Shown here: one piece after another, positions 10,584 through 35,637 of the stretch
How the letters are laid out: the number at the start of each line of letters is the position of its first letter
How positions within the stretch are numbered: the first letter of the stretch is position 1
From: an uncultured Verrucomicrobiales bacterium
Lineage (GTDB): Bacteria; Verrucomicrobiota; Verrucomicrobiia; Limisphaerales; UBA1100
Length of the DNA stretch: 35,637 bases
Reading direction: 5' to 3'
Assembly: GCA_913041895.1 (NCBI GenBank)
Contig: CAJWKQ010000009.1
Location: 1 to 35,637, forward strand
The notes under the pieces: generated by a model
The model's input: only the letters and a program-made list of their open reading frames with translations
Told to the model about the DNA's origin: nothing
Database searches by the model: none
Position numbers and translations under genes: made by a program

Positions 10584-11645
10584 TCAGTTTCCACGTGAGG
10601 CGAATTTGGTGGCCAAAATGGATAAAAGTGCACCCAAGCCTAAGTAGCCAATGGTGATATGTGTGATGAGCACAACTTGTCCTGCAACCGTTAGTGGAGA
10701 CACATCTCCAAAACCGAGGGTCGTAAAGGTCACTACACTAAAATAAAGATATGGAATAAAACCACCTGGCAAACCCGAATCACCACCAATTCCTTTCAAA
10801 TGACTGTCTAAGCCCACAGGAGCCATCCATTGATCCATGGCCCAATAGACACAGGAAAAAAACAAAATGTTTAGAGCTAGGAATAGCCCCCAACGCGTCA
10901 TGCTCCGTCCGCATTTTGAAGTAACGTTCCAACCCCAATACAAAAATTGATGTAGTTTGTCCTGATGACGAAATTCATGCAGAAAATTCTCATCAATGAC
11001 ATGCCTACGAACCAAGTATGCCCCGGAAAAATCAATGTCACGAATATCAGTCCCTATCCAATTTGCTTTTATAAAATTGCGCATATTTCGTAACTGAGAT
11101 CGCTGTAAACTGGCGTTGTGAAAACTGACACCCTCAACATTTGTTTCACGCAAATCCGAATCTATCATCTCCGACTGCGAAAAATCGGATTGCATTAGGT
11201 CCGCTCCAAAAAAACGGCTCCGAGCTAGCTTAGTTGCCCGGAAATCAGATCGAATCACTTGTGTTTCCACAAAAGTAGCATCCTCAAGATTTGCATCAAA
11301 AAAATTAGCGGAGGTAATCACACTCATCCCGAATCCAGATTTTTTTGCTGAACAACCCGACAAGTTAGTCCCCTTAAACGTGGCACCAAGGAATTCACCA
11401 TCATCGAGCGTTGCCTTGTACAGGGTTGCCCCGTCAAAATTTGCACTCGGGCATTTAGCTTGAGATAAGTTACAACGACTCATCTCACTATCTGAAAAAT
11501 CAAACCCAGCCAAATCCAGACCTGATAAATCTTGGTCCGTTAGTTTTAAGCCTTTGAGAACCTTACAATCTGCCCCTAAAGGTTCGCCCAATTCTTGAGC
11601 TCTCCTGATTGCTTCTATGATCTCACTGGGCGATTCCTTTTCCAT
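10584..11645 (-). CDS. Pentapeptide-repeat protein fused to a two-TM potassium-channel-like domain
   Basis: The N-terminal half holds tandem pentapeptide repeats of the A(D/N)LxX type (LSGLDLAGFDFSDSEMSRCNLSQAKC, GANLEDA-like units, SRFFGADLMQSDFSQ), forming a right-handed beta-helix. The C-terminal part has a membrane helix (WGLFLALNILFFSCVYWAM), a pore loop FTTLGFGDVSP matching the K+-channel filter T-x-G-Y/F-G-D, and a second helix ending near the C-terminus: an Ion_trans_2 channel. The track begins at a TTG. I prefer the ATG at 11645 (MEKESPSEII), which has GGAGG 12 bases upstream, giving 353 residues. It is transcribed away from mntR across about 100 bases and is followed 3 bases later by the HDOD gene. 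Ion selectivity and the role of the repeats are inferred. Confidence 0.8.
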   Translation of the reverse strand: MEKESPSEIIEAIRRAQELGEPLGADCKVLKGLKLTDQDLSGLDLAGFDFSDSEMSRCNLSQAKCPSANFDGATLYKATLDDGEFLGATFKGTNLSGCSAKKSGFGMSVITSANFFDANLEDATFVETQVIRSDFRATKLARSRFFGADLMQSDFSQSEMIDSDLRETNVEGVSFHNASLQRSQLRNMRNFIKANWIGTDIRDIDFSGAYLVRRHVIDENFLHEFRHQDKLHQFLYWGWNVTSKCGRSMTRWGLFLALNILFFSCVYWAMDQWMAPVGLDSHLKGIGGDSGLPGGFIPYLYFSVVTFTTLGFGDVSPLTVAGQVVLITHITIGYLGLGALLSILATKFASRGN

Positions 11646-11745
11646 TGATTTAGGATGCCTCCTTCTCGCTAATCTAATTAAAAAATGCTTTTTCTCAAGC
11701 AAAATGCGCGTTGCCACAATCAATAGTAATACATAAAATAAAAGT

Positions 11746-24685: not shown

Positions 24686-24733
24686 GCCCTACTGAAACAG
24701 GGCGAAAACATTTAAGGCTCCTTTTCAGGAGCC
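24686..24733 (-). promoter_or_regulatory. Two hairpins between adaptor 2 and permease 3
   Basis: GGCTCCT/AGGAGCC (24716-24733) forms a 7-base-pair stem that spans the stop codon of adaptor 2 and is followed on the minus strand by TTAAATGTTTT. A second stem, GCCCT/AGGGC (24686-24703), is followed by TTGAGATTTTTC just before the permease ATG. Neither has a clean T-tract; they may tune expression of permease 3 by partial termination or RNA stability. Confidence 0.4.
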
Positions 24734-26449
24734 GACTGACTTAAGCACATTATTATCGGTCCTCGGACCTTTCTTGGGCTGAGCATTATTGTCAATATCA
24801 GGTGACAGTGAAACTCGGTCTCCTTCTTTGAGCCCTTCCTTAATCTCGATAAACCGATTATTGAACTGGCCGGTTTTGACAGGAACCATTTTGATTAACT
24901 CTCCTTGTTTCACCTGCACAACTTTTTTACCCTGATAAGTAGTAACTGACTGCACCGGAACCATCAGAACGCCCTTCAGATCGGCCACAATAATTTCTGC
25001 TTTCGCCGAAACCCCAGGCTTCAAATCCTCAGGGAGTTGGTTATCAATATCATCGATCCACACATGCGTATTGTATACCGAAATATTTTCATAATAATTT
25101 CGAAACGCATCTGGTGTGGGGGCGACATACTTAACTATTCCTGTAAAAGTCTTATCCGGAAGGGAATCAATTCGAACCACAGCAGGTTGGTCAGTACGCA
25201 ACTGCCTTACATAAGATTCATGCACCTGAACAACGGCCATGAGCTCACTAACATCCGGCAATTCGAGCACGCGGTTTCCCTTCTTTACTAAAACCCCATC
25301 CTTGATATAGGAATCATTGGAACGATCAGAACTACGTGGATATATCACCAATCCATCCTGTGAAGCCCTGATTTCAGTTTTGGTTAGCTGGTCTTGATAT
25401 AATGCCAAGCGTTCCTTCTGTGATTTTAACCCTTCCTCTCTTCGTTTAACCAAAGATTCCATTGATTCGACAAGAGTGCGGGATTTTTCTTGAGTCCTCT
25501 TTTCTTCAATTTGTGTCTGTTCATATTTTGACACCAACCGCTTACGCGTTTGTGGCTGTTCAAACTTTAGGTACAGTTCCTTCTGGGTTTTGTATTTGGT
25601 GATGAGGTTCTGCTGCTTCTTTATGGTCAACTCATCGGCCTGCACCTGCAACGAAGTAGCATATCCTTTCTCAAGTAATTTCTTCGTATTGGCCAATCTT
25701 TCCTGAGCACGTTTAATTTCCTCCTGAGCCAAATCTATATCTCCTTCTAAAGCCAAAAGCCTAAGAGGAGCATCTCCTTCAATAAATCTGTCCACATCCT
25801 GTTTGGCAAATTCTGTATCCAAGGCCGCTTGTTTGTTGGCTGAGGCGGTTTCAAGTTTCCTGAGTTCTCTATCCTTCATTGCATTTCCCAACTGTTGCTG
25901 GGCATCAATAACCCCTTTTTGCTGCGCCAACATTTTTTCCCGCAAAATTCCGTCTTCAAATTTTATCAGCAAATCACCGGGGATTTGAATCGTCTGGCCA
26001 ACTGTCAAATTTTCCCAGTCCGCATCAGGATTTTCGCGCCTAATAGATTCAATAAAAGAATTGTGTTCAGTCAGGTTGGCCGAAATCCCAGAAGTGGGAA
26101 CCACGGCACGTAGTCCATGTGTCTTGGCAATTACCTCCAGTGTGTCCCCTTTCTCAACATAATGCTGAACTGGACCTTTTACATAAGTCCCTTCATCCAC
26201 CAGAGATACGATTGTTCCGCCGCTATCCAGTTCACATCTAAACGTAATCTTACTGGTAGAATCTAATGTGCCTCCTTCAGCTACTGTAATGCGCAGATCA
26301 CCTCTGACAGCTGGAGCAAATTGCATTAATCGGCTCTCTTCCTTACTAGGGTGCAGCCATTTGGCTCCCATGAAAACGCCTGACAAAACCACTATTAAAA
26401 AAGTGGTCCATGCCGGATGCCTCCTGATAAATGCCTTTGCTTTAGCCAT
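24725..26449 (-). CDS. Periplasmic adaptor (HlyD/MacA-like) with LysM-like insertion (adaptor 2)
   Basis: This 574-residue adaptor has an N-terminal membrane anchor (about 13-30) and the first lipoyl half (about 50-95, SKITFRCELDSGGTIVSLVDEGTYVKGPV). A LysM-like segment interrupts it (about 96-157, HYVEKGDTLEVIAKTHGL ... VGQTIQIP). Then come GDLLIKFE, a long coiled-coil hairpin (about 170-365), the second lipoyl half (TEIRASQDGLVIYPRSS), a beta-barrel, and a membrane-proximal domain (KMVPVKTGQFNNRFIEIKEGLKEGDRVSLSP). Such adaptors bridge a MacB-type permease and a TolC-like channel. LysM domains usually bind peptidoglycan, so this adaptor may touch the cell wall. It begins 4 bases after OMF 2, and its ATPase must be supplied by the gene at 30817. 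Confidence 0.88.
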   Translation of the reverse strand: MAKAKAFIRRHPAWTTFLIVVLSGVFMGAKWLHPSKEESRLMQFAPAVRGDLRITVAEGGTLDSTSKITFRCELDSGGTIVSLVDEGTYVKGPVQHYVEKGDTLEVIAKTHGLRAVVPTSGISANLTEHNSFIESIRRENPDADWENLTVGQTIQIPGDLLIKFEDGILREKMLAQQKGVIDAQQQLGNAMKDRELRKLETASANKQAALDTEFAKQDVDRFIEGDAPLRLLALEGDIDLAQEEIKRAQERLANTKKLLEKGYATSLQVQADELTIKKQQNLITKYKTQKELYLKFEQPQTRKRLVSKYEQTQIEEKRTQEKSRTLVESMESLVKRREEGLKSQKERLALYQDQLTKTEIRASQDGLVIYPRSSDRSNDSYIKDGVLVKKGNRVLELPDVSELMAVVQVHESYVRQLRTDQPAVVRIDSLPDKTFTGIVKYVAPTPDAFRNYYENISVYNTHVWIDDIDNQLPEDLKPGVSAKAEIIVADLKGVLMVPVQSVTTYQGKKVVQVKQGELIKMVPVKTGQFNNRFIEIKEGLKEGDRVSLSPDIDNNAQPKKGPRTDNNVLKSVGS

Positions 26450-28196: not shown

Positions 28197-29510
28197 TTAA
28201 GCGTGCCTCAGCGCTTCAATGGGATCCAAATGGGCTGCCCTGCGTGCCGGATACAGGCCAAAAACTAATCCGATCAAAACCGACAACCCGAAAGCCATTA
28301 TCACCGACCATGCTTTTACGATGGTTGAATCACCCGTTAAAAATTCGCGAAACTCTGCAAAAGCCCACCCTCCAGAAACTCCGATTGCCCCACCAACAAG
28401 ACAAAGCAATAAGGTCTCTACGAGAAATTGTACGGTAATATTTAAGCGTGTAGCCCCCAAGGCACGACGCACCCCGATTTCCTGAGTACGCTCGGTAACA
28501 GTCGCCAGCATAATATTCATGATACCGATTCCTCCAACCAATAGTGAGATACATGCAATATACAAAAGCATTCTAGTGTCACGTGCCTTTTGGTTTCGAA
28601 GCGCTACCATTTCCTGTATGGGTACTACGATTTCAAAATCACGTTCGTCTCTGCCTGCCTTTAATGCCTCATCAATTAATGGTAGAGCCGGCAGTACATC
28701 TTCAACCGTATCAAATTCGACTCGTATCTCCGACAATTCTACTGCTTCAAGTACGAGATTACCCACACTACGGTCCACATTTCTTTCTCCGTATAACGAC
28801 TTAAAGGTGGACAAAGGAATATATACATTTGCCGCAATCGTTTGGCCCATAGAACCGGGCAATTGAGGTAGTTTCTCAATGTCCGCCCTTTCCCGTAAGA
28901 TACCCTTCACTTGAAACACCTGCTCGGATTCATAACCACGTACCACAATTTCTTCTGCCAATGGATTATGTCCGGCGAACAAACGCTCTGCTAAGGATAA
29001 AGATATCACGCAGGCTGAAGCCTTGGTGTTTTCTTCCGCAGTATTAAGAAAGTGTCCGGCCACCATTTCGGCCTGTGTAAACTCTGGATAGTAGGGGAAT
29101 GTTCCAATCAGTTGACAACCCACTTCCCGCCGGTCATGCACCGCATTCATCCGCTTGGTCAGCATTGGAAGCACACGGCTAACCCCTGGCACTGTGTCCT
29201 TGATACGTGTCGCGTCAGTTCGTTTTAGTCCGTAGAATGCCATCCAACGGCGAAAAAAACTTTCCCAATCTCCATGCATCTGTTCACGCATAGAAGGCGG
29301 CTTGATACTGCGAATGATCACATTCTTGGCCCCAAGAGCACGAATCTCTTCTTGAGCATCGTGACTGGCCCCTTCCCCGATAGCCACCAACGCAATAACT
29401 GCCCCCACCCCAATAATCATACCCAACATCGTGAGACCACTACGCAGCTTGTGTAGTCGCAGACTCTTTAAACCAGCTTGAAAAGTTCGGATGAGAGCTA
29501 ATGCATACAT
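28197..29510 (-). CDS. MacB/FtsX-type ABC permease (second copy)
   Basis: This 437-residue permease has the same layout as its two paralogues: LKSLRLHKLRSGLTMLGMIIGVGAVIALVAIGEGAS at the N-terminus, a periplasmic MacB_PCD domain, and C-terminal LLVGGIGIMNIMLATVTERTQEIGVRRALGAT with YPARRAAHLDPIEALRHA. It is clearly closest to the preceding permease (29512-30813): both share VIIRSIKPxS, CQLIGTFPxYPxFTQ and NVYIPLSTFKxLYG, so the two look like a tandem duplication. The ATG at 29510 is 1 base after the preceding stop and fits the family N-terminus; the track start lies 15 codons upstream inside the neighbour. It may form a heterodimer with that neighbour, since MacB works as a dimer; this is inference. 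Confidence 0.88.
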   Translation of the reverse strand: MYALALIRTFQAGLKSLRLHKLRSGLTMLGMIIGVGAVIALVAIGEGASHDAQEEIRALGAKNVIIRSIKPPSMREQMHGDWESFFRRWMAFYGLKRTDATRIKDTVPGVSRVLPMLTKRMNAVHDRREVGCQLIGTFPYYPEFTQAEMVAGHFLNTAEENTKASACVISLSLAERLFAGHNPLAEEIVVRGYESEQVFQVKGILRERADIEKLPQLPGSMGQTIAANVYIPLSTFKSLYGERNVDRSVGNLVLEAVELSEIRVEFDTVEDVLPALPLIDEALKAGRDERDFEIVVPIQEMVALRNQKARDTRMLLYIACISLLVGGIGIMNIMLATVTERTQEIGVRRALGATRLNITVQFLVETLLLCLVGGAIGVSGGWAFAEFREFLTGDSTIVKAWSVIMAFGLSVLIGLVFGLYPARRAAHLDPIEALRHA

Positions 29511-29511
29511 T

Positions 29512-30813
29512 TCAGGCGTGTCGTAAAGCCTCAATCGGGTCCAAGCGTGCCGCACTCCATGCAGGATAAAGACCGAAAGTCAAACCGACTCCGACTGACA
29601 ACCCAAAAGCCGCGATTACAGACCACTCGGTGACGATCGTGGTATGATGAAGAATGTAATGGAAGAAGGCTGCATTCCCACAACCTCCCAGCACTCCGAT
29701 GGTGCCACCAATCAAGCAGAGTATGAGCGTTTCAACCAAAAACTGGACTGAGATATCAATCTGGGTAGCTCCCAAAGCCCGACGCACTCCGATTTCCTGG
29801 GTACGCTCAGTCACCGTGGCAAGCATGATGTTCATGATCCCAATACCTCCTACGAGTAACGATATGCAGGCAATCAACATTAATAGCCAAGTGTCTCGCG
29901 CTTTTTGGGCCTTCAGAGCATTAAGTTCATTAATGGGCACTTGGATTTCATAATCGACCTTATCCTTACGAACTTTATCCAATGCCTCTCGAATCAATGG
30001 CAAAGCTGGAACCACCTCATCCACCGAACCAAATTCAACCCGGATTTCGCTCAATTCAACCGTGTTGACCGATATACTCCCCACACTTAAATCAATATCC
30101 TTGATGCCATACAAAGCTTTGAAAGTGGATAATGGAATATAAACGTTGGCCAAAATCGTGTGACCAGTTGCATCAGCCTGCTGAGGCAACTTCTCTGAAT
30201 CAGCACGTTCCTCTAAAATACCCTTTACTCGAAATATTTGGTGAGATTCACGACCACGAACAATTACTTCCTGCCCCAAAGGATTTTTCCCGGGAAAAAG
30301 AAAACCAGCCAAACTCATCGTTAGCACACACGCATTTTCTTTCCTTGCCTCCTCCATTTCATTCAGAAACTGCCCTGCTACAAGACGTGATTGGGTAAAC
30401 TGAGGATAATGAGGGAATGTTCCGATCAACTGACAATCCTTGTCTCGTTGCTCATGTGTAACATTTTTTCTGTGCCTTAAGATTGGAAGAACTCGTTTTA
30501 CTCCGGGAACCGTTTTTTCAATCCGCACAGCATCAGAGTTCTTAAGTCCGTAAATAGACTCCCACTGCATTTCGCCCTGCAATTGGACTTTATCCGATAT
30601 CGGCTTGATGCTTCGGATGATGACATTTTGAGCGCCCAGTGCCTTGATCGCCTCCTGTGCTTCTCGACTTGCCCCTTCCCCAATGGCGACCAATAGAATA
30701 ACTGCCCAGACACCAATAATCATTCCCAACATTGTAAGGGCACTTCGCAACTTATGGAGACGAAGACTCCTGAACCCAACCTGAATCAGGCGGAGGATAG
30801 AAAAACCGGGCAT
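29512..30813 (-). CDS. MacB/FtsX-type ABC permease (first copy)
   Basis: This 433-residue permease starts 3 bases after the ATPase stop, the classic layout of a split MacB-like pair. TM1 is about LTMLGMIIGVWAVILLVAIGEGAS; a periplasmic core of about 220 residues follows; then three TMs, with LLVGGIGIMNIMLATVTERTQEIGVRRALGAT and the closing YPAWSAARLDPIEALRHA. It is the nearest paralogue of the next gene. In the MacB mechanism, ATP-driven motion of this protein opens and closes the adaptor and outer-membrane conduit. The start codon is ATG, with no rival start nearby. Substrate unknown; candidates for the family include lipoproteins, peptides and amphiphilic compounds. Confidence 0.9.
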   Translation of the reverse strand: MPGFSILRLIQVGFRSLRLHKLRSALTMLGMIIGVWAVILLVAIGEGASREAQEAIKALGAQNVIIRSIKPISDKVQLQGEMQWESIYGLKNSDAVRIEKTVPGVKRVLPILRHRKNVTHEQRDKDCQLIGTFPHYPQFTQSRLVAGQFLNEMEEARKENACVLTMSLAGFLFPGKNPLGQEVIVRGRESHQIFRVKGILEERADSEKLPQQADATGHTILANVYIPLSTFKALYGIKDIDLSVGSISVNTVELSEIRVEFGSVDEVVPALPLIREALDKVRKDKVDYEIQVPINELNALKAQKARDTWLLMLIACISLLVGGIGIMNIMLATVTERTQEIGVRRALGATQIDISVQFLVETLILCLIGGTIGVLGGCGNAAFFHYILHHTTIVTEWSVIAAFGLSVGVGLTFGLYPAWSAARLDPIEALRHA

Positions 30814-30816
30814 GAT

Positions 30817-31548
30817 TTAGGCTTCCTGAAACTGGTTCTCGGATTTCCGATCTGAATCTTGTTTTCGGATATCCTTATCCACTTGCCCATCCTTGAGGTG
30901 AATGACGCGACTTGCCCGCTCAGCAACCGCGTCATCATGTGTTACTACCAACAACGTACGACCTTCTGCGTGAAGTTCATCGAGTATATCCAGAATCTCC
31001 TGCTCTGTAGTGGAGTCGAGGTTGCCAGTGGGTTCATCAGCCAAAAGCATCAAAGGCTCATTTACCAACGACCGCGCCACCGCCACTCTCTGCTGCTGTC
31101 CTCCAGAAAGTTCCATGGGCCGATGATCCAATCGATCACCCAAACCAACTTTTTGAGCCAACTTTTCGCAGTGGTCATAGTAGTCACTAATGTCCTTACC
31201 CTGATAAAAAAGAGGAACGTGAATATTCTCAATCACGTTTAACTGCTGAATAAGATTATAGGATTGAAAAATGAACCCAATGCGTGCGCCCCTCACACCT
31301 GAAAGTTCCTTGTCACTCATATGGGCCACATCATCATTACCCAAAATATAAGCACCGGCGGTAGGCCGATCCAAGCATCCGAGAATATTTAGTAGAGTCG
31401 ATTTTCCTGAACCTGAAGGCCCCATGATGGCAGTGTAGGATCCTTCCTCAATTTCGAAATTGAGGCCCTTCAGTGCCGGCACTTGAATGGCCCCCAGATC
31501 ATAAATCTTGGTAAGATTCCGAATCTCAATGATGTTCCGGTCAGCCAT
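30817..31548 (-). CDS. MacB/LolD-type ABC transporter ATPase
   Basis: This 243-residue nucleotide-binding protein is complete: Walker A GPSGSGKS (about 43-50), Q-loop FQSYNLI (Gln95), signature LSGGQQQ (147-153), Walker [12 protein letters not shown] (Glu172), and the switch His204 in VVTHDDA. The match to MacB/LolD/FtsE-type ATPases is strong. It is the only ATPase in a locus with three permeases, so it probably drives all of them, unless a second one is encoded beyond the window. It lies 21 bases after adaptor 1 and 3 bases before permease 1. The C-terminal tail after about residue 225 ([18 protein letters not shown]) is charged and unconserved. Confidence 0.94.
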
Positions 31549-31569: not shown

Positions 31570-33969
31570 TTACTGCTTCGGAAAGAGAACTTTATAATCC
31601 TTCTTCATTTGCTGATCGAACTTCTGCATTTGTTCCTCGTTAAGGAACTTCTGCACTTCTTCTCGAAAGTCATTTCGAAATTTTTCCCTAGCACTTGGGA
31701 GTTGTTCCCTCGTAATTTCTTTGGACATTAGGCCCGCCATTAACTTGGCCCTTGCACTTTTCGCCTTAGCTTGTGCAGTTGCCCAATCCTGCTTTTGATC
31801 CTCTGTAATCCCAAGTAAACTGACAGGATCATTGAGGTCCGCTTTCTTAGGAGCTTGAGTCTCCAGATCAATGTAACCCTTACCCATAATAGCTTCATCG
31901 AGGTTTAGATTGTCCGCCTCAGTCAGAGGTGAAAGATGGACACGTTCCCCTTCCCTTAGTCCATCGAAATAGACCATAATTCCCTCTGTTTTGTTTCCCT
32001 CTTTTTTGAGCTGACTAGGGGCCTCATCAAACTTCACCAGTTGCTTTTCCGACAGGAATCCCTCGACCGATTTGCGAAACGCATCAATAATTTCTGCTGC
32101 GCCATCCTCCTGTTTTTTTCGTATATCCTTATCGGTTTTTTTCTTGGCATTTTTTATTGCTTCCTGCCGCTCCACTCTTGAGAAATCCTTTACTTCCTCA
32201 CGGGCCTTTACCATCAGAGCTTCTTTTTCTGACGCTAATTCTTCAGCCAACTGATCTAGGGCTTTTTTTGCCTTATTGCGCTGCTGCCACCATTTATCCT
32301 TTTGCTTATCGGTAATATCCAAGATGGAAGCCCAATCGCGTATGGCAATATGAGTTTCATCACTATATTCTATAGTCACAGGTCGCCACTCATGTTTTTC
32401 AGTCTTTTCATTAAGCACCCAGCATCCGGTTTCTGGAGTATCTTCACTAATCATACGAGTGGTCACACACTGGTTTGGCAACTTAATCAAACGCTCTTCC
32501 TCAACAAGATTCATGACCACAACTTCCACTTTAACCTTCATCCCTTCAGAAACTGAGTCAGGGAAACTACTGCTATCAATAGCAACCTCGGCTTTAAAAT
32601 AGGATTTATCAGTGTGCCCTCGGCGATTGGAATCCACCGTTGTGCTAATCATAGATAAAGTTCCCGGAAGCTTTATATCTTCAACTTCAACATAGGCCTT
32701 CTGCCCAACTTTCAACTGAGGACGTTTAAGTTGAGGCACACTAATATCAACCTTGAGTGATTTACTCTTGGGTAGCTTAATTAAATTTCTGCCCTTGTAG
32801 ACTTTCGCTCCATCCATAATCGGCTCCCCTCGATCATAACGGTGAGTCCAATACAAAACGGTTCCATCCTGAGGCGCGTAGATTTTAGTATTTGCCATCT
32901 GCTCGAAAAGATCCTCCAATTTTTCCCGCTCTAGCTCCAAGGTCTTCTCAGCAGTCAAAACGTCGGAGTCTGCATCTGCAGAGTTGGCCTTATTCATAAC
33001 TTCCTGTTTCTTTATCTGCACCGCGCATTCATCTACCGTCAGCTCTTTCGCGCTCAGCATGGATTTTTGATCATACTTTTTATAGGTCTCCAAATCGTCT
33101 CTTAATACCTTGATCTGATGTAAGGCCTTATCTCTTCTGGATTTCTCCTTGAGCACCTCTAAATCAGATACAAACCCCAATTCCTTTAGTCTGTTATAGG
33201 CGGTCAGATTTTTCTCCGCCAGCTCTACGTCAGTCTCTAAATTCTTAATGGAAATTCCTGTATTCGTTATATATGTCTCAATAGTGTTATTCTTTAACTT
33301 ATCCAGATCCATTAAAGCATTTGTATAATTATTTTGAGCCACCTTGAGAGCGAGTTCCGAAGCAAGCACGAGCGTCTCCTTATTGCCCTTAGCACGCATC
33401 AAATTGTTTTCTGCACGCTGTACCGCAATCTCCTGGGAATTAATGCGTTCTTTCAAAGTTAAAGGGTCCAGCTCAACAAGTAAGTCGCCAGGGATTTGAA
33501 TCTCCGTACCTGCCTCCAATTTTTCCCAGTCCAGCTTAAGGTCCTTATTCAGCTGCTTGATGCAAAGTAAATCCTTATCATGATATTTTGATATAGACTC
33601 TATTGAGTCCTCCAATTTAACAGTATAGGTGACGGGGCCTTTTACCTTAGTCCCTTCTTCCACAATCGTTTCAATGGTAGTCGAACCTTCCAATTCACAC
33701 TTGAGCTCTTCTACATCAGTAGATTTCAACTGGCCGGTCAACGGAACTGTAACTAAAAAATCAGATTTTTTGGCAACATGATAAACTTCCTTGCGAACCT
33801 TTTCCTTCTCTTTGTTGAGATAATATTTAGCACCCCAGACCCCGCCACCCACAACGCCGAACAGAATCAAAACGCCGAGCAGTTTCGCAATCGCGAAGCC
33901 TCCTCTGCCTCTTTGATTAGTAACTGATGCCGCAGAATTAGCCTTTTTGGATCTGTTTCTTTTTCTCAT
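31570..33969 (-). CDS. Large periplasmic adaptor with LysM-like insertion and Spy/LTXXQ-like segments (adaptor 1)
   Basis: This 799-residue adaptor is a paralogue of adaptor 2 but much larger. It has a basic N-terminus, a membrane anchor (about 26-48), the first lipoyl half ending EEGTKVKGPV, a weak LysM-like segment (about 112-160, TYTVKLEDSIESISKYHDK ... AGTEIQIP), GDLLVEL, a long coiled-coil (about 170-360), the second lipoyl half (IYAPQDGTVLYWTH), and a beta-barrel. The membrane-proximal domain is interrupted at about 546-652 by a charged helical segment (ILDITDKQKDKWW ... FLSEKQLVKFDEA) before resuming at VYFDGLREGERVHLSP. A similar segment (716-792, LLGITEDQKQDWA ... FLNEEQMQKFDQQM) ends the protein. 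Both resemble Spy/CpxP LTXXQ units. The gene starts 1 base after OMF 1. Confidence 0.85.
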   Translation of the reverse strand: MRKRNRSKKANSAASVTNQRGRGGFAIAKLLGVLILFGVVGGGVWGAKYYLNKEKEKVRKEVYHVAKKSDFLVTVPLTGQLKSTDVEELKCELEGSTTIETIVEEGTKVKGPVTYTVKLEDSIESISKYHDKDLLCIKQLNKDLKLDWEKLEAGTEIQIPGDLLVELDPLTLKERINSQEIAVQRAENNLMRAKGNKETLVLASELALKVAQNNYTNALMDLDKLKNNTIETYITNTGISIKNLETDVELAEKNLTAYNRLKELGFVSDLEVLKEKSRRDKALHQIKVLRDDLETYKKYDQKSMLSAKELTVDECAVQIKKQEVMNKANSADADSDVLTAEKTLELEREKLEDLFEQMANTKIYAPQDGTVLYWTHRYDRGEPIMDGAKVYKGRNLIKLPKSKSLKVDISVPQLKRPQLKVGQKAYVEVEDIKLPGTLSMISTTVDSNRRGHTDKSYFKAEVAIDSSSFPDSVSEGMKVKVEVVVMNLVEEERLIKLPNQCVTTRMISEDTPETGCWVLNEKTEKHEWRPVTIEYSDETHIAIRDWASILDITDKQKDKWWQQRNKAKKALDQLAEELASEKEALMVKAREEVKDFSRVERQEAIKNAKKKTDKDIRKKQEDGAAEIIDAFRKSVEGFLSEKQLVKFDEAPSQLKKEGNKTEGIMVYFDGLREGERVHLSPLTEADNLNLDEAIMGKGYIDLETQAPKKADLNDPVSLLGITEDQKQDWATAQAKAKSARAKLMAGLMSKEITREQLPSAREKFRNDFREEVQKFLNEEQMQKFDQQMKKDYKVLFPKQ

Positions 33970-33970
33970 A

Positions 33971-35637
33971 TTAATCTCCTAAAATTTGATTTGGCGGTAT
34001 TACCTCTTGGTCCTGTTGATCTGGGGCTGGGTCAGGTTGTCCACCTGAAGTTGCATCGGTCTTGAGCCAAAATTCTTCCTGTGTCGTGTCTAAAATACCC
34101 ACGTCTTTGCGAAGCTTCAAGCGGGTTTTATGATAGTCCACAATCGCCCGAGAAACCGCCTGCTGGGCAGAAGTAAGGCTATTTCGAGCTCTAATAATAT
34201 CTTGAGTACGTACTCCCGGAAACCCCAGCCGTAAACGTTCTCTGGTAGCCAGCAAGTTCTCCTCAGCGTTTTTCTGTTTCGCGAGTTGGGTGTAATAATA
34301 AGCCCTTTGACGAGCAAGATTGCGGACATCTGCTCGGACACCCTTCCTTAAAGTGTCGAGCTGAGTTGCTAGAGCACGCAATTGCTTCTCAAAAGTGATG
34401 ATACTTTTGCGATATGCATTGCGCTCACTAACTTTGGATATTGGAAGATCAAGCTTCAGTTTTATAGTAGAGTCGTATTCGTTTGGATCAAAAGAATCAT
34501 AAAGTTGATCCTTTAGTTTGGCCTCAGCTTCGAAATTTAAACCGGGTAGTAAACTGTTTCGAGCAACCTTGACCGAGCGCTTGGCATCCTCAAACCGATC
34601 AATATGATTTAGATAATCAAGCCGGTTAGTGATAGCCATGCTATATCCGGTTAAATCGTCAATAGGAACCTGAGGCAGCCCTAGCTTATTTATTTCCTCC
34701 AAAACCTTAAAATCAAGCTGGATCGATGTTCCTTGTGGCAGCGAAAGTTCTTGTTTGAAATTATCCAGTGAATTTTGGAAAGAATTGGTGGATCCAATGT
34801 AGCTCAATTTAGCGTCGTATTCATCTTTCTTAGCCTGTTTGACGTCAAACTCCGCTAACAATCCAGCATCCGCACGGGCCTCTATTTCAGTACGGAAAAA
34901 TATTGAGTTCGTATAACTATTATAGGAAATACGCATACTGTCTGCTTGCTGTAAAAGATCGAGGTAATCATTGACCACATTAAGGGCAAAAGTCTTCTGG
35001 TAATGGCTAAAGTCGCGCACTTGATATACCACTTGACGCTCGGCCAGCTTAAGAACCTCTGCAGCAACATCTGCCCCTGCACCGCGCAACAATGGCTGGG
35101 TAAGTTTTAAGGTCAAATCAGGCACTTTAGGTTTACCGTTAATGTAAAGCACTAGATCATTAGCTAATGAAGCTGTGATTTGGCCTCCGGTTTTCCAGAT
35201 TTTTTTGGTTAACCCAATATTGGCTGAAGATGTAGCCGGATCCTGGGTTCCATCCGAATTTCGCTTTATCCCTATATCGGCACTTGCGCTGGTAAATTGG
35301 AAAGAAAAATTGTGGCGGGTTTCTGTTAGGCTCAAAGCTTTCTTGTACAGTTCCTCACGATTATCCTGATAAGACCGATTCGATTTGACTGCTATTTCCA
35401 ACGCCTCAGGAAGCGTGATTAGCCGCACCTTGCTTCCCCGAGCACGGTCGAGGATCAGCTCACTGCCATTCACATCTGTTGGTTTGCGTTTTGAATATTC
35501 AGTATCTATGGAATAATTGTGAGGCTGGCCGAAGACATGTTCATGACGTTCGGACAAAATTTGATATACCTCCTTATCAGCAGCCTCCCGATACTTGGCG
35601 GCAGCGCAGCCCAATGCAAACAAGGCGGCAATACCCG
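33971..35637 (-). CDS. TolC-like outer-membrane channel lipoprotein (OMF 1, 5' end outside window)
   Basis: The frame stays open to the window edge (IAALFALGCAAAKYREAADKEVYQIL), so the TTG start in the track is not real and the first signal-peptide residues lie outside. The visible part has a lipobox-like ALGC, the N-terminal motif YREAADKEVYQILSERHEHVFG shared with OMF 2, and two OEP helical repeats: PDLTLKLTQPLLRGAGADVAAEVLKLAERQVVYQVRDFSHYQKTFALNVVNDYL, and TQDIIRARNSLTSAQQAVSRAIVDYHKTRLKLRKDVGI. About 555 residues are present. It is the first gene of the tripartite cluster seen here and is followed by adaptor 1 after 1 base. The tail is Pro/Asp/Gln-rich, as in OMF 2. The operon promoter is not in the window. 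Confidence 0.88.
   Translation of the reverse strand, partial: GIAALFALGCAAAKYREAADKEVYQILSERHEHVFGQPHNYSIDTEYSKRKPTDVNGSELILDRARGSKVRLITLPEALEIAVKSNRSYQDNREELYKKALSLTETRHNFSFQFTSASADIGIKRNSDGTQDPATSSANIGLTKKIWKTGGQITASLANDLVLYINGKPKVPDLTLKLTQPLLRGAGADVAAEVLKLAERQVVYQVRDFSHYQKTFALNVVNDYLDLLQQADSMRISYNSYTNSIFFRTEIEARADAGLLAEFDVKQAKKDEYDAKLSYIGSTNSFQNSLDNFKQELSLPQGTSIQLDFKVLEEINKLGLPQVPIDDLTGYSMAITNRLDYLNHIDRFEDAKRSVKVARNSLLPGLNFEAEAKLKDQLYDSFDPNEYDSTIKLKLDLPISKVSERNAYRKSIITFEKQLRALATQLDTLRKGVRADVRNLARQRAYYYTQLAKQKNAEENLLATRERLRLGFPGVRTQDIIRARNSLTSAQQAVSRAIVDYHKTRLKLRKDVGILDTTQEEFWLKTDATSGGQPDPAPDQQDQEVIPPNQILGD

Follow-up and report, generated by a model that had tools for sequence, protein, structure and literature searches.

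The LTXXQ family is familiar chiefly from free chaperones; CpxP-type proteins report to a kinase, and CnrX and ZraP are metal-binding cousins of the Spy-type fold. The periplasmic domain of MacB is where the cargo of MacB-type pumps is handled, and in E. coli the membrane-proximal domain reportedly switches the MacB ATPase, to go by the title of a 2011 work of Modali and Zgurskaya. Peptides and a protein toxin are among the periplasmic cargo that MacB-type pumps export (PMC5985334). The concave face on which Spy binds its partly unfolded clients is basic and partly hydrophobic (PMC8144458, PMC3910116), and SilB offers the precedent of an adaptor with its own chaperone-type, CusF-like domain (PMC4446572). 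Here we describe, in a window of 35,637 nucleotides (the whole stretch of DNA analysed) from an uncultured Verrucomicrobiales bacterium, a MacB-type exporter cluster whose adaptor A1 carries two segments, S1 and S2, which sequence comparison through intermediates identifies as homologous to the LTXXQ/Spy superfamily. Based on the cargo range of MacB-type pumps, client binding by Spy and the SilB precedent, we favor a cargo-holding role for these putative modules, with a probability of roughly 0.4.

The A1 adaptor and its exporter cluster

A1 is a 799-residue MacA-like periplasmic adaptor (31570–33969, minus strand) with matches to HlyD_D23, RND_mfp and type_I_hlyD. In its full AlphaFold model, the hairpin, lipoyl, barrel and membrane-proximal domains follow one another in the MacA order, and the top Foldseek match is MacA in MacAB-TolC (E = 3.8e-17). 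No match of A1 to the NCBIfam MacA equivalog (PRK11578) was obtained and, the cut-off of that model not being reached, we term A1 MacA-like only. Its gene belongs to a contiguous cluster in which genes for a TolC-type protein, A1, an ABC ATPase and a pair of MacB-type permeases are followed by genes for another TolC-type protein, a second adaptor (A2) and one more permease, the third. Upstream of A1 lies the first TolC-type outer-membrane efflux protein (33971–35623, minus strand; Pfam OEP, 2.2e-17), in a frame that is open at the window end; the gene after A1 (30817–31548, minus strand) encodes an ATPase of the MacB/LolD type, whose NCBIfam matches to MacB (1.6e-68) and LolD (1.3e-67) are both under the equivalog cut-offs. 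The first two permeases, also on the minus strand, occupy positions 29512–30813 (Pfam MacB_PCD 3e-29, FtsX 9.9e-21) and 28197–29555 (1.8e-29 and 2.4e-21, respectively); the true start of the latter is probably later than the start of its open reading frame, which would reduce the overlap between the two. A2 (24725–26449, minus strand; HlyD_D23 2.5e-9) reaches 32.6 bits with the MacA equivalog, whose cut-off is 342, and gave no match to the module profile described below, in keeping with the earlier claim that it lacks both segments. In relatives, too, the A1 gene is linked to those for an ATPase, a MacB-type permease and a TolC-type protein. Relatives of A1 were found in 19 of the 20 genomes examined from the bacterial family of this genome, and a 99% identical copy is present in G004, the single-cell genome AG-365-D08 of an uncultured Verrucomicrobia bacterium.

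A further insert, LysM-like, is found in the first half of the lipoyl/barrel region of A1 (residues 115–160; 33490–33627, minus strand; Pfam LysM, E = 0.0014). It adopts a strand–helix–helix–strand arrangement in the AlphaFold model, and in two A1 orthologues the LysM match is over the Pfam cut-off (4.5e-8 and 6.6e-5). A LysM-like insert is also present in the corresponding half of A2 (residues 96–157). These putative anchors could attach the pump to peptidoglycan; we found no published description of such an insert in adaptors of this kind. Elsewhere in the window, a minus-strand gene (10584–11723) encodes an Ion_trans_2 channel domain fused with pentapeptide repeats.

Position and motifs of segments S1 and S2

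The preliminary description, which placed two Spy-like segments at positions 31594–32334, was right on this point: the interval corresponds to residues 546–792 of the A1 reading frame. S1 (residues 546–652; 32014–32334, minus strand) lies within a loop of the membrane-proximal domain, and S2 (residues 716–792; 31594–31824, minus strand) comes after a linker and forms the C-terminus. The opening and closing motifs read from the translation are exactly those announced, namely LDITDKQKDKW (residues 550–560; 32290–32322) and FLSEKQLVKFD (residues 638–648; 32026–32058) in S1, and LGITEDQKQDW (residues 719–729; 31783–31815) and FLNEEQMQKFD (residues 775–785; 31615–31647) in S2, all four on the minus strand. 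Across 1,616 open reading frames (330,086 residues), the patterns L-x-I-T-x-x-Q-K-x-x-W and F-L-x-E-x-Q-x-x-K-F-D each occur twice in A1, twice in its 99% identical copy and nowhere else, loci L063 and L064 of the scanned set being repeat entries of the same two genes.

In an alignment of 14 A1 orthologues, S1 appears as a clean insertion between FIAIK and GL-x-x-GE-x-V/I-HLSP, a place where the other orthologues have about 1–8 residues, and it is present only in this genome and in AG-365-D08; the membrane-proximal domain is thus indeed split by S1. That S1 might be an assembly artefact was dropped as an explanation because the second genome carries it with silent differences. S1 aligns poorly in its middle, which exceeds that of other modules by about 30 residues, and its score with the module profile comes mostly from the C-terminal half; S1 may correspond to one module with an extended middle part or to one and a half of them. 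The net charge is +2 for S1 and +4 for S2.

Relationship to the LTXXQ superfamily

Taken alone, both segments are sub-threshold in direct Pfam and NCBIfam assignment. With Pfam LTXXQ (PF07813), S2 scores 14.1 bits (E = 0.08) and S1 12.3 bits (E = 0.29), both below the curated cut-off of 24.3 bits; LTXXQ is the top match of S2 and one among several weak matches of S1. For this reason we call S1 and S2 relatives of the LTXXQ superfamily and do not file them as Spy or CpxP. The best PF07813 E-value among 17 adaptor modules is 6.4e-5.

Since Pfam alone was only suggestive, we took 13 C-terminal modules from adaptors of other genomes, this genome being left out, and turned them into a profile. This module profile gives 55–60 bits with S2 and 19–23 bits with S1, and also detects the module three times in another protein of this genome (Pfam LTXXQ, 5.8e-13). 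By comparison, the highest scores obtained with shuffled versions of S1 (5,000 per design, 15,000 in total) are 14.7 bits for plain shuffling, 16.3 bits when heptads are preserved and 17.6 bits when the N-terminal motif is kept. Profile–profile comparison with hhalign relates the adaptor modules to the LTXXQ proteins of this genome (98.8%, 6.6e-17) and to S1 (95.2%, 2.5e-8).

These results bear on the possibility that S1 and S2 are K/E-rich coiled-coil helices that resemble LTXXQ by chance, a view with which their helical, charged composition and their Pfam scores under the cut-off would agree. The profile–profile and shuffle tests speak against it, as does the fact that the long coiled-coil hairpins of the same adaptors do not exceed about 7 bits with the module profile; we regard this explanation as scarcely credible overall, and for S2 sequence comparison effectively refutes it. 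The preliminary description had named plain coiled coils, similar neither to each other nor to LTXXQ, as the finding that would overturn it; this is excluded for S2 and unlikely for S1.

When stand-alone proteins were added to give an alignment of 63 modules, the consensus read LxLTxEQK...LTxEQxxK, and the four best matches of the resulting profile among PDB sequences were E. coli Spy (2e-5 to 8e-5). Individually, 52 of the 63 modules match Pfam LTXXQ and 39 match the NCBIfam CpxP-family model at E-values up to 1. Searched against PDB sequences, the 17 adaptor modules yielded chance-level matches only, and this genome's own LTXXQ protein did not find Spy; the link from S1 and S2 to Spy emerged only once the stand-alone modules were added and is therefore transitive. 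An LTxxQ-type motif stands at each end of the hairpin (LDIT..Q and FLSEKQ in S1, LGIT..Q and FLNEEQ in S2), the second beginning with LS or LN in A1 versus LT in most relatives. Altogether, S2 is very probably, and S1 probably, a module of the LTXXQ (Spy/CpxP) superfamily. The LTXXQ pattern claimed at the outset thus stands insofar as the module profile and hhalign relate the segments to each other and to LTXXQ, although Pfam alone leaves them sub-threshold; the claim of two like segments, borne out by the motifs and the profile, was overstated for S1, whose long middle aligns poorly.

Predicted structure of the segments

Both segments are modeled as helical hairpins whose LTxxQ motifs fall at helix breaks. 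The S2 model (pLDDT 79) contains helices 9–13, 17–42, 48–67 and 72–84 of the 93-residue piece and a short terminal turn; the S1 model, obtained with an alignment depth of almost nil, has the same order with longer helices (residues 546–550, 554–592, 598–638 and 641–649). Four helices are hence predicted in the order expected for a Spy monomer, but the Foldseek matches to Spy (E-values of 3.3 and above, TM about 0.4) are not significant. The fold search with S2 lists Spy and CnrX among 54 matches, both of them at E-values above 1, so that a Spy fold of S2 is consistent with the model but not proven. Confidence in the full A1 model is low for the linker leading to S2 and for the residues that follow S1. 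The amphipathicity of the helices is weak (p about 0.03 for helix 3 of S1, none for helix 2 of S2).

The recurrence of CnrX entries in this weak list, like the match of 22 of the 63 modules to Pfam Metal_resist (PF13801) at E-values up to 1, could point to metal binding or sensing as in CnrX or ZraP. Neither S1 nor S2 contains a single His or Cys, and both have few Met; the absence of these ligands argues against a metal sensor, a reading that we discarded on this ground, and makes metal binding very improbable as the role of the modules.

Evolution of S1 and S2

In a tree of the adaptor core, the module is present in most A1 orthologues, in the whole branch of a third adaptor, A3, and in the adaptors of G009, G013 and G010; it is absent from A1 of G001, G003, G008, G012 and G016 and from the entire A2 branch. 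On the simplest reading of these sequences, S2 is an old C-terminal module that was lost twice in A1 and once in A2, and S1, from its distribution, a lineage-specific insert later than S2. A remnant of S2 was sought past the stop codons of G008, G003 and G001 and was not found. Among the 63 modules, the closest to S1 are S2 of A1 itself and the near-identical S2 of G004; as its closest relative lies in the same protein, the likeliest origin of S1 is an internal duplication of S2, the copy probably having moved into the membrane-proximal domain. The adaptor of G006 has two tandem modules at its C-terminus. The idea that a second A1 module was gained where A3 is absent fits G000, G004 and G006 and is contradicted by G001, G003 and G008, for which reason we abandoned it.

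Between this genome and G004, S2 has changed more in amino-acid sequence than the adaptor core (5 changed and 3 silent codons versus 1 and 22; p = 0.002), and S1 shows 0 changed and 3 silent codons. A Trp position is shared by 14 of 15 adaptor modules versus 5 of 48 others, and a Phe position by 15 of 15 versus 4 of 48. Such positions, common to adaptor modules and atypical of stand-alone ones, are what a docking surface would show, and together with helical hairpins devoid of a strong amphipathic face they would suit a structural role, in which the hairpins act as spacers or oligomerization elements that stabilize the adaptor hexamer or the contact with the permease, without client binding. 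Against this, the superfamily of origin has studied members that bind clients, and the close orthologues without the module presumably still assemble; we hold a purely structural role to be less likely than cargo holding, but a serious rival to it.

The module elsewhere in Verrucomicrobiota

The module profile finds matches in 152 of the 293 genomes of the order, mostly, among the matches listed, in small stand-alone proteins. Neither among the matches listed for these 293 genomes nor among those listed for 388 genomes of the phylum is there an adaptor–module fusion outside the family of this genome; rarer fusions could still occur. This genome also encodes a protein of three tandem LTXXQ modules (L051:1217-2257, plus strand) and, on a different contig, three neighboring genes that each hold two LTXXQ modules (L052:6820-9915, plus strand). 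The third adaptor of related clusters, A3, ends with an LTXXQ-like module followed by an EF-hand pair (L044:3514-5826, plus strand), and equivalents with the same arrangement occur in G002, G012 and G014-G016. In yet another protein, a thioredoxin-like domain, one or more LTXXQ-like modules and a dienelactone-hydrolase-type domain are joined (L088:1296-3167, plus strand).

Two kinds of kinases carry the module as well. Sensor histidine kinases of the HAMP/HisKA type have an LTXXQ-like module and an EF-hand in their extracytoplasmic region (L087:2096-4054 and L116:5935-7881, both plus strand) and adjoin an OmpR-type regulator; these natural kinase fusions occur in about half of the genomes of this genome's family and were not found in this genome itself. 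In other, more distant families of the phylum, Ser/Thr kinases bear an LTXXQ-like module after a membrane helix, at the C-terminal end (L118:169-1851 and L119:613-2154, plus strand; L122:2231-3886, minus strand). LTXXQ in Verrucomicrobiota is thus a mobile periplasmic domain of pump adaptors, histidine kinases, Ser/Thr kinases and a hydrolase; these fusions extend the family past free chaperones, and the kinase fusions are offered for study.

Because the same module is the extracytoplasmic portion of kinases from related bacteria, sensing has to be weighed on a par with chaperoning. The A1 modules would then bind unfolded or amphipathic ligands not for export but to report the state of the envelope, in the manner of CpxP-type proteins, and switch the pump via the membrane-proximal domain, with which the splitting of that domain by S1 is in line. 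Signal transmission would be poor from S2, the conserved copy, which sits on a low-confidence and probably flexible linker, and S1 is limited to one lineage; on balance, a sensor role is less likely than cargo holding, but a serious rival to it.

Possible mechanism of the A1 modules

The cargo-holding role that we favor is supported by the LTXXQ homology, by the hairpin topology with breaks at the LTxxQ motifs, by the insertion site of S1 in the membrane-proximal domain and the C-terminal tether of S2, by the persistence of the module on several adaptor branches and by the positive net charge of both segments. It is weakened by the amino-acid change of S2 in excess of the core, the weak amphipathicity and the non-significant fold match to Spy; furthermore, orthologues of the same exporter without the module (the five genomes listed above) show that it is dispensable. 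The role suggested in the preliminary description, cargo holding or stress sensing at the base of the export channel, agrees with these data as a candidate function.

S1 and S2 would be periplasmic and sit alongside the membrane-proximal domain, adjacent to the periplasmic domain of MacB. There they might bind, weakly and in the manner of Spy, peptides or proteins that are amphipathic or partly unfolded, hold this cargo in solution and enrich it locally at the entrance of the pump. S2 would act from its flexible linker, and S1, fixed in the membrane-proximal domain, could relay cargo occupancy to that domain. A fuller version, in which the modules form a built-in holdase that passes periplasmic cargo to the MacB-type permease and in which the spliced copy couples capture to ATPase activation, is put forward as a tentative possibility. 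More broadly, a natural Spy-type module on an adaptor suggests how MacB-type pumps gather peptide or protein cargo from the periplasm, this pump perhaps holding or sensing its cargo with a built-in putative chaperone.

Comparison with known systems

A1 shares with MacA its domain order and fold as well as the clustering with MacB-type permeases, an ATPase and TolC-type proteins. Unlike in the MacA system, ATPase and permease are separate genes in the A1 cluster, and A1 differs from MacA by S1, S2 and the LysM-like insert and by the lack of an NCBIfam MacA match. With Spy and CpxP, the segments have in common two LTxxQ-type motifs around a helical hairpin and a periplasmic location, predicted in the case of S1 and S2; however, Spy and CpxP are free proteins whereas S1 and S2 are part of an exporter adaptor, and S2, which alone remains under the Pfam cut-off, is some 20–25 residues shorter than Spy between the motifs. 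CnrX and ZraP (PF13801) have a related helical-hairpin fold, with CnrX among the weak fold matches, but differ by the His and Cys residues that S1 and S2 lack.

The open-access literature yielded no published report of an LTXXQ- or Spy-type adaptor fusion. An adaptor with a C-terminal metallochaperone domain is known in SilB of Cupriavidus metallidurans, and a Spy-type one is apparently new. The principle is the same in both, since the C-terminal domain of SilB also exists as a stand-alone chaperone (PMC4446572); SilB, however, works with an RND metal pump and the domain it carries is a β-barrel that binds metal, whereas the module of A1 is helical, of the LTXXQ type and without metal ligands.
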